DNA of 20,966 nt from a virus. Shown one piece after another: positions 1,099 through 5,374 of the stretch (position 1 is the first letter of the stretch; each line of letters begins with the position of its first letter). The stretch covers positions 1 through 20,966 of IMG/VR virus record IMGVR_UViG_3300034073_002354. One strand, written 5' to 3'. Below the pieces are notes generated by a model, which saw nothing but the letters and a program-made list of their open reading frames with translations, was not told the origin of the DNA and did not search any database. Made by a program: the position numbers and the translations under genes.

Positions 1099-1551
1099 TC
1101 AGGGCTGTGTGGGCCAGGTCACGTTCCACGGAAAGCCGCCTTGGGACGGCACATCACGCAGAGCTTGGCGGTACTTCTTCCAGTCTGACTGCTGTTGCGC
1201 ATCAAGCTTGACGTCTGCAAGTTGCGTCCAGTCACAAGCAGCAAGGCGTTGGTCGCGGTCTCGGCGGATCCGACGAGCTTGGTTCTCAGCAAGCTGCTGT
1301 TGTTGCTCCAAGGGAAGCGGCTGCACGTCCCAGCCCTTTACCCAAACGCCGTTGACGAGTTCGACGGGGCGCTCGACTACATGCTCGGTTCGATGGTCGC
1401 AAGCAGGGGCAGGTTCTTCTTTGATTTGGATGACGCCATAGCTTTTGAGATCAGCTTTTTCCAGATCAAGTGGAAAGCTGACATTGGGGTGCTTCTGTCG
1501 CAGCTCGCTGCGACCAATGGGTTTCTGTGGATCAGCAGCAAAGGCAAGCAT
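1099..1551 (-). CDS. Tail assembly chaperone, Phage_tail_APC (PF16778) type
   Basis: 150 aa, ATG at 1549-1551, overlapping the TAA of the beta-propeller gene by one base. The C-terminal half carries the hallmark of the PF16778 tail assembly chaperone family: RDQRLAACDWTQLADVKL, then W-KKYRQALRDVPSQGGFP and the ending NVTWPTQP. The N-terminal half (to about residue 60) is less conserved and contains PLDLEKADLKSYGVI, and a Gln/Arg-rich helix (LEQQQQLAENQARRIRRDRD) precedes the conserved block. Members are usually encoded just downstream of a fibre or receptor-binding gene and are thought to help that protein fold or assemble. The placement here, between the propeller protein and further fibre parts, fits. 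Confidence 0.82.
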   Translation of the reverse strand: MLAFAADPQKPIGRSELRQKHPNVSFPLDLEKADLKSYGVIQIKEEPAPACDHRTEHVVERPVELVNGVWVKGWDVQPLPLEQQQQLAENQARRIRRDRDQRLAACDWTQLADVKLDAQQQSDWKKYRQALRDVPSQGGFPWNVTWPTQP

Positions 1552-2831
1552 TAGATGTCAGTCTTTGTTGAAGTCAGTGTAACCGCCGAATCCGTCAATG
1601 ATGAAGCCGCTTCCGTCAGGGTGGCAGTGCTGCCGGTAAGAGTCGGCGTAACTGCAGTGTATAATTTAGAAACAGTAGGCCAAGCGGCGGAATTGTAAAA
1701 ATAACTGCCATATGTGCCTGTAAGATTACCCGTTAAAGGCAGGTAAGCAATTAAACCATTTGGCGCGGTTGTTACATTTGAATATGTTAGACCGGCAAGG
1801 TACATTTTGTTAAGTCCAAAAATTGCCACGGCATAGCCATTTTCAGCATTTGTTGTGCCTAGATAACGCTGCCAAGAAATTGACAAATCACTTGCATATT
1901 TGACGACATAAAAATCCTGACGACGCTCAGCCCCGAAGTAAGTTCCAATGTCATTGGATGTTATCACGTACATATTATTACTGGAATCAGCAAAAGCGTC
2001 TACGGGATCGCTTCCGACAAATCTATCAATAGTTTTTGTTGTTTGTATGCTGCCGCTAGCATTATACTTAATAGCAAAAAAATCTGCGTTTCCAGTCCCA
2101 AAAACATAAATGTTGCCCGAAGAATCCGCACTTACAGTAGACGCGTACCAAGTTGTAAACGACTCATAAACCGCGCGCTGGAACTGAACCGTTCCGGATG
2201 AATTATATTTTACAGTCAAAAAGCGTTTATACGAAGATACTGTGTAGTATCCACAAACCACGGGATTTCCAGAGCTATCAATCGTCAGCCCGTCAAAGCG
2301 CGTCGCATAAATACTTGTTAGTCCTTTCTGCCATTGCAGTACACCAGAAGAGTTGTATTTTGCTATAAAACCTGCATCGGTTCCAGAATTGCTGTAATAA
2401 CCAGCAATGTATATATTGTCGGAATTATCGACAGCAATTTTTTTGGTCAGGGCGCCAGCTATAGAGCGCTGCCAGCGTAGTGTGCCGGAGCTTGTATAAC
2501 TAGCTACATAGCTTACATTGCCAACATCTTGTTCTGTCAAAACAACGTAAATATTCCCAAGGCTATCCAAGCATACGTCTTCACCAATTTGCGTATTAAA
2601 GGATTCTCCTAGGCTGCGCTGCCAACTCAAAGCACCATCTTTTGTTAATTTTCCAACCAATCCGTAGCCAACCGTGTTTGTGTAACGTCCCGCAAAATAA
2701 ATATCGCCCGTTAAGCCTACCTCAATGCCTTTGATGTATTCGTTGTTTGTTGCTGTTGATAGCCTTGTGATCCAATAATTTTCTCGCGTGCCGGTTGCGA
2801 TGGCGGCAAAAAATGCTTTACTTAACATCAC
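1551..2831 (-). CDS. Seven-bladed beta-propeller tail protein (probable receptor-binding protein)
   Basis: 426 aa, ATG at 2829-2831, joined to the fibre gene by a 4-nt ATGA overlap. Residues about 30-365 hold seven repeats of 45-55 residues built as D-S-S-G-N-I-Y-V-x-G ... F-x-x-K-Y-N-S-S-G-x-L-x-W-Q-R. Clear examples are VDNSDNIYIAGYYSNSGTDA and FIAKYNSSGVLQWQKGL. This is the SBBP/NHL type of beta-propeller blade. No signal peptide or catalytic motif is evident. The C-terminus (residues 397-424) is four heptads of Ser/Thr-Leu-Thr. The gene is AT-richer than its neighbours: two hand-counted 60-base lines gave 40% and 43% GC, against 65% in a capsid-gene line. Position after a fibre and before an assembly chaperone suggests a distal binding protein, perhaps for a host surface glycan; that role is inferred. 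Confidence 0.78.
   Translation of the reverse strand: MMLSKAFFAAIATGTRENYWITRLSTATNNEYIKGIEVGLTGDIYFAGRYTNTVGYGLVGKLTKDGALSWQRSLGESFNTQIGEDVCLDSLGNIYVVLTEQDVGNVSYVASYTSSGTLRWQRSIAGALTKKIAVDNSDNIYIAGYYSNSGTDAGFIAKYNSSGVLQWQKGLTSIYATRFDGLTIDSSGNPVVCGYYTVSSYKRFLTVKYNSSGTVQFQRAVYESFTTWYASTVSADSSGNIYVFGTGNADFFAIKYNASGSIQTTKTIDRFVGSDPVDAFADSSNNMYVITSNDIGTYFGAERRQDFYVVKYASDLSISWQRYLGTTNAENGYAVAIFGLNKMYLAGLTYSNVTTAPNGLIAYLPLTGNLTGTYGSYFYNSAAWPTVSKLYTAVTPTLTGSTATLTEAASSLTDSAVTLTSTKTDI
1560..1643 (-). repeat. Four tandem 21-nt units encoding Ser/Thr-Leu-Thr heptads
   Basis: The end of the beta-propeller gene encodes TLTGSTA, TLTEAAS, SLTDSAV and TLTSTKT in direct succession, just before the last two codons. 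The DNA copies have diverged, so the period is kept at protein level. A regular heptad with Leu at position 2 suggests a short oligomerisation or docking tail rather than an unstructured end. Confidence 0.75.
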
Positions 2832-5374
2832 GCATAGCTCCCAAGATAAGCGCCATATAAAGTGCTGCCTATCTTAAAAAACGCCAACATATCGTAAGAC
2901 GTTAATGTTGGCGCTACATTTCCGTTTGCTGTAACCCATGTAACCGTTGGCCATGTCACTGTATATGAGCTGCCATTTGCCAACACAAGAAGTACTGACT
3001 GCCCCGACTGGAGTGCATCTGTAAACGAAGGGTTTCCCGTTAATCCAGTCGTTTGTATTGTACCGTTTGCAGGGTCTAGCGAAATGGACCCAGACGTGCC
3101 AAGGCCTGTATATACGGTTTCTTTAATTTCTTTAAGGGTTGTTTCACCGGTGACACCGAGTGTGCCAGGGATGCTGATGTTGCTGGCCCACTCGACGTCA
3201 GTGCCGGCAGCATTGGTCTGGAGGAGTTGGCGGGCAGTGCCGTTAGCGAGTTTGCTAACAGCGATCTCGGCGGATGCGTTGATGTCGGCGTTAACGATTA
3301 CGCCGCTGCCGATTGCCGTTACACCGGCATTGCTGATCGTGATATCACCGGACATGGCGACGGATGTAGCCACGTTGCTGCCGTTACCGACGAGAATGTT
3401 GCCGCTGGTCAGTGATGCCAGCTTGCCAAATGCAATGCCTGCGCTGGCATTTACGTCGGCATCAACAATGACTCCGCTACCGATAGCGGTGACGCCTGCA
3501 TTACTGATAGTGACATCACCCGACATTGCCACTGAAGTCGCAACGTTCGAGGCGTTGCCAACAAGGATGTTGCCACTGGTCAAGGCAGCAAGTTTGCTGT
3601 AGGCAATCGCAGCACTAGCGTTTATATCTGCATTGACGATGCTGGCGTTGCCACTTACAAGTACGTTGCCGCTTTGATTAGGCAGGGTGATCGTTCTGTC
3701 GGCTGTGGGGTCAACAACGGTCAGAGTTGTCTCGTAGTCGTCTGCAGTTGCTCCTTCAAAAACTAAATTTGCACTATTTAACGTGATGTTTCCAGTGAAA
3801 ATTGCTCCGGTTCCGCCTGATAGTGCTGCTTTGTTTAGCTGCAGTTCCGCCAATGCGGCTTGCACATTTGTAGCAGTTAATCCGCTAATGCTTGCAACAC
3901 TGACAGAAGATGCACCTGCTGTTGCACTTGCCCCAATGTATTGCCACGCACTTCCCGTAGATATAATCAAATCGCCCGCAACCATTGCCACGTTTGGAGC
4001 GTTACCACCGCTAGGTGTGCCGCCAACCGAGACAATTAAATAATATCTTGTGTTACTTGCGCTAGCCGCAGGCAGAGCGGCACTTGCGGTCAATCCAATA
4101 GCGGTACCAGCAGCAGTTACAGCGTCTACTACCCCAGCGCCCGAGGATGCGTTAAAAGTTCCAGCGAAAACAATTTCGCCACTAACGGCTGTAATTGGAA
4201 TCCAACCTGTACCTGAATAGCAGTACAGATCTTCGTTGGTAACGTCGTAAAAGAATTGTCCGGAGTAGTCTGCGGCAGGGAAGTCAACTACGTTTGTAGT
4301 AGAAGCTGCTCCTCCAAATTTTGTAGTTGAGAAGTTTGCAAATTTGCTGCCTTCAATGCCATTAGCAGGCAATCGCGCAGAGCTAAGAGTGCCGCTGGTA
4401 ACTTGGCTGGCGCTGAATTCGATGTCAGTCAGGTCTGCGCTGACTAGGTTGCCGCCAGCGGTGATGTGTCCCTGGGCATCAACGGTGACTTTTTCGTAAG
4501 TTCCGGGTGTGACGGTGTTGGTGTGGCTGATGGTGCCAGCAGCATTGACGCCAAGACCAGCGCCAGGGGCAACAACACCGACCGTTCCGGATGTGGCGAC
4601 GGGTACATCCGCGCCAATCAGAGCGCGTCCGTCGGCGATTAAGCCCTTGGCGTTGTAGCGAACAACGTGGTACGCACTCGTGTTTTCAGTGACCGTGTTA
4701 TCAATGACGATCTGGTTCCCGCTCATGGCGAGACCGTTGCCATTCACCAGAACAGCACCCTTATCCGTGGTGGTGGCAGTCGGCAGATCTGCCGGAGCAA
4801 TCACGCGATAGGTGACGGAACCAGCGCCGGACGTTGGGCCAGCCAAGAACTGACTGGCAGCACCAGTGTTGTCGAGGGTGGTGTTAAGTGTGACGCTATC
4901 CCCGGTTTGAGTGACGGTGACATTTACGACGCCTTCGCTGCCGCCAATTACGGTGTTAACTGAGCCGCCGGCTTTGATTGCTTGCCAAGTGGAGCCGTCC
5001 CAGCAGTAGAGCTTGAGGTCGTCTGTATCGAGAGCGAACTGGCCGGTGAAGTCACCAGTTGCTGGAAGCGTGCTGACAAGGCGCGTTACAGAATTGTTCG
5101 CAAGCTTGGCGGCGTTTACAGCGTCGTTGGCGAGCTGCGAGGTATTGACGGTCTCGCCTTCAATGGCGCTGCCTGGTACTGAGCCAGCAGCGAACAGGAT
5201 TTTCGCGCTCGGGATTGTGTCGTCGGCAATCAGCGTGACAGCCTTGCCGATGCCGTCCGAGATCGTGATGCTGCGTGTCTCGCTGGCACTGGTATCAGCG
5301 ACGGCCAGCAGGTCGTTGGCGGCAAGGTTTGCGCCAGCTAGCTGGGGTAGTTCGCTGATCTTCAGGTCAGACAC
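2828..5374 (-). CDS. Large repeat-containing tail fibre protein
   Basis: 848 aa with a GTG start at 5372-5374, six bases after a GAGAGG ribosome binding site. The N-terminus (MSDLKISELPQLAGANLAAN) is the adaptor-like start common in cyanophage fibres. Two copies of a tip-like motif follow (LDTDDLKLYCWDGSTWQAI near residue 115; YDVTNEDLYCYSGTGWIPI near residue 380). The middle has Thr/Val/Ala/Gly-rich shaft sequence. Residues about 581-711 contain two full and one partial copy of a 57-residue repeat. The C-terminus (TWPTVTWVTANGNVAPTLTS ... FFKIGSTLYGAYLG) resembles a small knob domain seen at the end of other phage fibres; there is no peptidase S74 domain. Probably trimeric, extending from the tail tip. 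GC content swings along the gene, which suggests mosaic assembly. Confidence 0.85.
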   Translation of the reverse strand: MSDLKISELPQLAGANLAANDLLAVADTSASETRSITISDGIGKAVTLIADDTIPSAKILFAAGSVPGSAIEGETVNTSQLANDAVNAAKLANNSVTRLVSTLPATGDFTGQFALDTDDLKLYCWDGSTWQAIKAGGSVNTVIGGSEGVVNVTVTQTGDSVTLNTTLDNTGAASQFLAGPTSGAGSVTYRVIAPADLPTATTTDKGAVLVNGNGLAMSGNQIVIDNTVTENTSAYHVVRYNAKGLIADGRALIGADVPVATSGTVGVVAPGAGLGVNAAGTISHTNTVTPGTYEKVTVDAQGHITAGGNLVSADLTDIEFSASQVTSGTLSSARLPANGIEGSKFANFSTTKFGGAASTTNVVDFPAADYSGQFFYDVTNEDLYCYSGTGWIPITAVSGEIVFAGTFNASSGAGVVDAVTAAGTAIGLTASAALPAASASNTRYYLIVSVGGTPSGGNAPNVAMVAGDLIISTGSAWQYIGASATAGASSVSVASISGLTATNVQAALAELQLNKAALSGGTGAIFTGNITLNSANLVFEGATADDYETTLTVVDPTADRTITLPNQSGNVLVSGNASIVNADINASAAIAYSKLAALTSGNILVGNASNVATSVAMSGDVTISNAGVTAIGSGVIVDADVNASAGIAFGKLASLTSGNILVGNGSNVATSVAMSGDITISNAGVTAIGSGVIVNADINASAEIAVSKLANGTARQLLQTNAAGTDVEWASNISIPGTLGVTGETTLKEIKETVYTGLGTSGSISLDPANGTIQTTGLTGNPSFTDALQSGQSVLLVLANGSSYTVTWPTVTWVTANGNVAPTLTSYDMLAFFKIGSTLYGAYLGSYA
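3242..3634 (-). repeat. Fibre-shaft repeat: two 171-nt units plus a partial third
   Basis: Unit 1 (3464-3634) and unit 2 (3293-3463) each encode 57 residues of the form NADINASAAIAYSKLA-LTSGNILVGN-SNVATSVAMSGD-TISNAGVTAIGSGVIV. Only a handful of positions differ between them. A third copy covers the first 17 residues (3242-3292), then diverges into ARQLLQTNAAG. The exact 171-nt spacing and high protein identity with many silent DNA differences point to an old duplication kept under selection. Confidence 0.92.

Follow-up and report, generated by a model that had tools for sequence, protein, structure and literature searches.

A predicted seven-bladed SBBP propeller as a probable exchangeable adhesin of a siphovirus tail fibre

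The stretch of DNA analysed here (the window), 20,966 bases long, comes from an uncultured virus, and genes in siphovirus head-tail order lie on its minus strand. The open reading frame under study was confirmed on that strand of the window (1551-2831, 426 aa). Its translation probably starts at ATG 2828 rather than GTG 2831, because close relatives start at that codon (M-L/I-S/N-K) and because the ATG overlaps the fibre stop codon as TGATG, coupling the two genes. The stop codon of the propeller gene is likewise coupled to the start of the following gene (TAATG), so that one-base overlaps mark both the fibre/propeller and the propeller/PF16778 junctions. The product of that following gene passes the gathering threshold for Phage_tail_APC (PF16778; 88.4 bits, threshold 26.6). 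The gene order thus agrees with the original prediction, which placed the protein between the main fibre and a PF16778 chaperone (Table 1); the propeller lies among tail fibre genes and beside its cognate chaperone gene, a context that serves as a mark of phage receptor-binding proteins. With its counterparts in the Synechococcus siphoviruses S-LBS1, S-CBS3, and S-CBS1, the capsid protein shares 52-53% identity, and a picocyanobacterial host is therefore likely; a search for psbA-type genes as a further host clue found none in eight related records.

Table 1. Features of the propeller locus, in window coordinates
Feature	Position	Strand	Remarks
Tail fibre, 848 aa	2828..5374	-	Upstream of propeller; stop overlaps propeller ATG by one base
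Fibre C-terminal adapter domain, about 100 aa	2831..3133	-	Exchanged along with propeller
Propeller gene	1551..2828	-	425 aa from ATG 2828; 426 aa from GTG 2831
N-terminal peptide MLSKAFFAAIATGTREN, probable mounting module	2775..2828	-	Similar modules on propellers and PF24299/DUF7483 proteins
Velcro strand, residues 20-25, closing blade 7	2757..2774	-	AlphaFold2 model
Seven blades	1737..2738	-	28 strands, AlphaFold2 model
Blades one by one	2607-2738, 2457-2591, 2316-2453, 2166-2303, 2019-2150, 1857-2000, 1737-1844	-	
C-terminal beta tail, residues 366-426	1554..1736	-	Short strands ~7 residues apart; AlphaFold2 and HMM
PF16778 tail assembly chaperone	1099..1551	-	E 2.7e-25; start overlaps propeller stop by one base
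PF16778 domain within chaperone gene	about 1102-1278	-	
Segment exchanged relative to L004	1240..3127	-	Fibre adapter, propeller, and N-terminal part of chaperone

Profile searches assign the propeller to the SBBP rather than the NHL repeats, since it scores above the gathering score of Pfam SBBP (PF06739; 24.1 bits against 20.5) and below the threshold for NHL (PF01436; 17.5 bits against 20). Matches to TIGR02608 delta-60 (E 1.4e-11) and to the LipL53 SBBP family (E 4.5e-19) lie under the curated cut-offs, and a PHROGs search returned no useful family. AlphaFold2 reached a pTM of 0.69 from the single sequence, and a pLDDT of 91.9 with a pTM of 0.91 from an alignment of 55 viral relatives. In the resulting model the repeats close into a propeller, as SBBP repeats are expected to do: 28 strands form seven blades of four, an N-terminal strand completes blade 7, and a well-predicted C-terminal beta tail follows; the model contains one short helix and no stem. 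Of the complete propeller of seven SBBP/NHL-like repeats originally proposed, the blade number, the closed ring, and the SBBP assignment are all recovered, and only the NHL component falls away.

Among the matches listed by VIA-align, the closest solved propeller is that of CylK (7ron; Z 45.6 over 345 residues, 23% identity), a seven-bladed cyanobacterial Friedel-Crafts enzyme; a designed seven-bladed propeller aligns with a Z of 34, and other structural neighbours include the sialidase NanA and virginiamycin B lyase. PhiKZ gp131 and PRD1 P2 do not appear among the best 50 matches per list, which has no bearing either way. A near full-length structural match (TM 0.87/0.88) is found in A0A6J5N4Z3, a beta-propeller repeat protein of an uncultured Caudovirales phage, though at 22% identity and with no function described. 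Across the 55 aligned sequences, the d-a and b-c loops are variable (entropies of 2.6 and 2.3) and the a-b and c-d loops conserved (1.1). Variability would therefore sit on one face of the modeled propeller, a pattern that may be general to SBBP propellers.

The presence of CylK, NanA, and virginiamycin B lyase among the structural neighbours allows a reading of the propeller as a tail-tip enzyme that would attack surface polysaccharide, as a lyase or glycosidase, instead of simply binding. However, the CylK alignment covers only the propeller of that enzyme (chain 250-662), and its N-terminal domain of ~250 residues has no counterpart in the window protein; moreover, the invariant columns of the viral alignment are G, D, K, and Y at mostly repeat positions, with no obvious catalytic set. 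We regard an enzymatic role as unlikely.

Relatives of the propeller are encoded in 420 viral stretches by a first alignment scan and in at least 563 by a second, for which the query excluded the C-terminal tail. The original prediction calls the fold uncommon among described phage adhesins, but these counts indicate that it is not rare in uncultured phages. A scan of viral contigs with the single protein returned no match, and since the alignment scans found hundreds, this null result reflects a limit of the search patterns. An HMM for the C-terminal tail (E 1e-3) matched 107 of 110 viral propeller ORFs, whereas 110 cellular SBBP ORFs gave no match. A PF16778-like gene, identified with a profile built here, lies directly downstream in 36 of 62 non-redundant viral propellers, at spacings from 4 bases of overlap to 12 bases apart; these loci are best-ranked matches, and both viral rates may therefore be inflated. 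The scan with the tail-free query agrees, with the tail present in 28 of 28 further ORFs and a PF16778-like gene directly downstream in 20 of 27 further non-redundant propellers. Approximately one third of viral propellers have no recognisable PF16778 neighbour. A literature search returned no link between PF16778 and phage, and SBBP and phage together only in an unrelated context.

Eight further propellers adjoin another small conserved gene, of NEYPRHIGD type, in the PF16778 position. This 109-aa gene (MLYINxENEYPRHIGDxQL), found downstream of the propeller in L154, L155, L161, L164, L182, L195, L197, and L200, resembles the small gene that follows the propeller of L077 and may represent another chaperone type. 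Tandem propellers with a small chaperone-like gene between them occur in L135, L138, L153, and L204. L287 (Leptospira phage KF114878) has neighbouring genes with beta-propeller and kelch repeat annotations.

Comparison with close relatives indicates that the propeller is exchanged as part of a cassette. The window and L004 are 93-97% identical at the DNA level on both flanks, as against 47% in the propeller; identity drops from 95-100% to 17-80% within the exchanged segment. It stays at 94-97% across the tail genes and the greater part of the fibre, falls abruptly at position 3127, and recovers near 1240, inside the chaperone gene. Divergence and exchange of this kind are a further mark of phage receptor-binding proteins. 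Similarly, phages whose central tail protein J is 96-98% identical to that of the window carry either propellers of only 28-61% identity or an S74 fibre. Five members of the same lineage (L087, L088, L096, L116, and L120) contain neither the propeller nor PF16778; their fibre instead runs on into a C-terminal region with an S74 intramolecular chaperone, a domain verified by Pfam in L096 and L087. Two complete solutions, propeller with PF16778 and S74-ended fibre, thus alternate at one locus on the backbones of this lineage. Because the propeller is very different or absent in close relatives with such similar flanks, it has the appearance of an exchangeable host grip.

Within allele classes, dN/dS values of 0.03-0.12 (0.08 in comparison with L127) indicate purifying selection and lead us to reject diversification by positive selection or hypermutation, although dS is near saturation in some pairs. 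Divergence extends over the whole propeller gene, unlike the target of a diversity-generating retroelement. Judging from these comparisons, the propeller alleles are old, conserved, and traded between backbones rather than fast-evolving.

Such exchange also bears on a structural role at the tail tip, for which the nozzle protein of SU10, with a seven-bladed propeller as its core, offers a precedent (PMC9509320). Yet the propeller is dispensable in the lineage, as the S74 alleles demonstrate; it is highly divergent on near-identical backbones, unlike a core tail part; and it is encoded downstream of the fibre, adjoining a fibre-type chaperone. A purely structural function is therefore very improbable.

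The propeller gene is GC-poor (42.8%, as compared with 52.7% for the window and 58.6% for the capsid gene), and its GC3 of 0.377 is the lowest among the 19 genes of the window. The low value of ~40-43% in the original prediction is thereby confirmed, whereas the 65% set against it was that of a single capsid line rather than of the capsid gene. GC3 remains between 0.36 and 0.50 across very different propeller alleles, and low GC, being common to all propeller alleles examined, does not date an acquisition; the tail fibre gene of S-LBS1 is also GC-poor relative to its own genome (PMC6157547). The nearest relatives of the propeller are viral, at 78% identity, with hundreds more at 30-37%; cellular SBBP proteins share 23-39% identity with it and have no C-terminal tail. 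The immediate source of the propeller, as far as these relatives tell, is other phages. Recent capture of a bacterial surface propeller, the separate acquisition originally suggested, could draw on the low GC3, on the abundance of SBBP proteins in bacteria, and on the cyanobacterial source of the best cellular match (L205), but is extremely improbable given the closer viral relatives, the virus-only tail, and the low GC3 throughout the alleles.

In viral loci, 69 ORFs (redundancy included) end in the fibre adapter domain, and a variable adhesin is often encoded directly after it. Besides SBBP propellers, the bodies encoded between adapter and PF16778 comprise PF24299/DUF7483 proteins and at least two other types of repeat protein. 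Propellers and DUF7483 proteins carry N-terminal modules of the same types (RYKGGVISATPPTTS..., YPGGFITKSPV..., MDPITQQ..., GAASAQGFG..., and ML.K.L..AAG), and for 20 of 42 propellers the match of the N-terminus to that of a DUF7483 protein beats 60 shuffles. For the window itself the match to DUF7483 modules (score 27) was equalled in 4 of 60 shuffles and is not significant alone; those of its sister alleles L095 and L122 beat all shuffles. These data are compatible with a plug-in system at the fibre ends of aquatic tailed phages, in which adapter, mounting peptide, and PF16778-type chaperone serve bodies of all these kinds interchangeably; the bodies would be traded between backbones as cassettes and would alternate with S74-ended fibres. 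We would give this generalisation an even chance of being correct.

The other repeat proteins in this slot include two types (L107, L024, L030, and L038; L109 and L018). These types, WDIST...MYVxG and AYPWSGSGFGTKYSNP...VAFSPDG, may be further propellers. A 1084-aa ORF in L186 (5812-9066) combines a DUF7483-like region with a propeller.

We propose, with considerable confidence, that the propeller is an exchangeable distal adhesin of the siphovirus tail fibre. Its N-terminal peptide would dock onto the adapter domain at the C-terminal end of the 848-aa fibre, and the PF16778 protein encoded by the next gene would aid its folding or assembly. One variable face would bind a molecule on the host surface, most likely a glycan, and specificity would be changed by exchanging the cassette of adapter, propeller, and chaperone, with either another propeller allele or an S74-type fibre end taking its place. 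The distal receptor-binding role put forward in the original prediction is well supported, if indirectly, by the cassette swapping, the replacement by S74 fibres, the chaperone linkage in most viral relatives, and the N-terminal modules common to another body type of the same slot.

Propeller receptor binders as such are already known: PMC4901313 describes them for Staphylococcus phage phi11 (five blades) and PRD1 P2, and gives the seven-bladed PhiKZ gp131 as a proposal. In phi11 Gp45, as in the window protein, a propeller domain forms part of a tail receptor-binding protein, and the glycan site is proposed to lie in the propeller (PMC4901313). However, Gp45 combines a helical stem, five blades, and a tower in one trimeric chain, an architecture that the window model does not share; the window protein has seven SBBP blades without a stem and is a separate gene with its own chaperone. 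The C-terminal domain of PhiKZ gp131 (4GBF, cited in PMC4901313) is described as seven-bladed, located at the baseplate periphery, and a proposed receptor binder, although gp131 is a myovirus baseplate protein and the likeness is one of description. Related SBBP-type blades occur in other picocyanobacterial viruses, the T4-like cyanophages Syn1, S-RIM32, S-RIM44, and S-PM2, but at ~25-30% identity; the propellers of Syn1 and S-PM2 lie within proteins of >1000 aa, and that of Syn1 has no C-terminal tail. Several of these T4-like cyanophage propeller proteins are annotated as virion structural proteins. The apparent novelty lies in the SBBP type, in its wide spread, and in its linkage with a chaperone as a cassette.

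The receptor binders of cyanosiphoviruses are poorly known. A fixed propeller fold with a virus-only C-terminal tail and a linked chaperone would allow host specificity to be approached from sequence in hundreds of uncultured phages; phage pairs that in nature differ mainly in the cassette would permit direct tests of host range. DUF7483 and viral SBBP proteins likewise gain a testable function.

Positions 1-500 of the window (minus strand) contain the start of another tail fibre gene that runs off the contig. Within it, positions 122-176 share 91-96% DNA identity with tail fibre genes of the Synechococcus podoviruses S-CBP3 and S-CBP4, and an overlapping stretch at about 164-206 is 88% identical over 43 bases to the S74-allele fibre of L088 and L116; these matches possibly reflect a recombination joint common to fibre genes.
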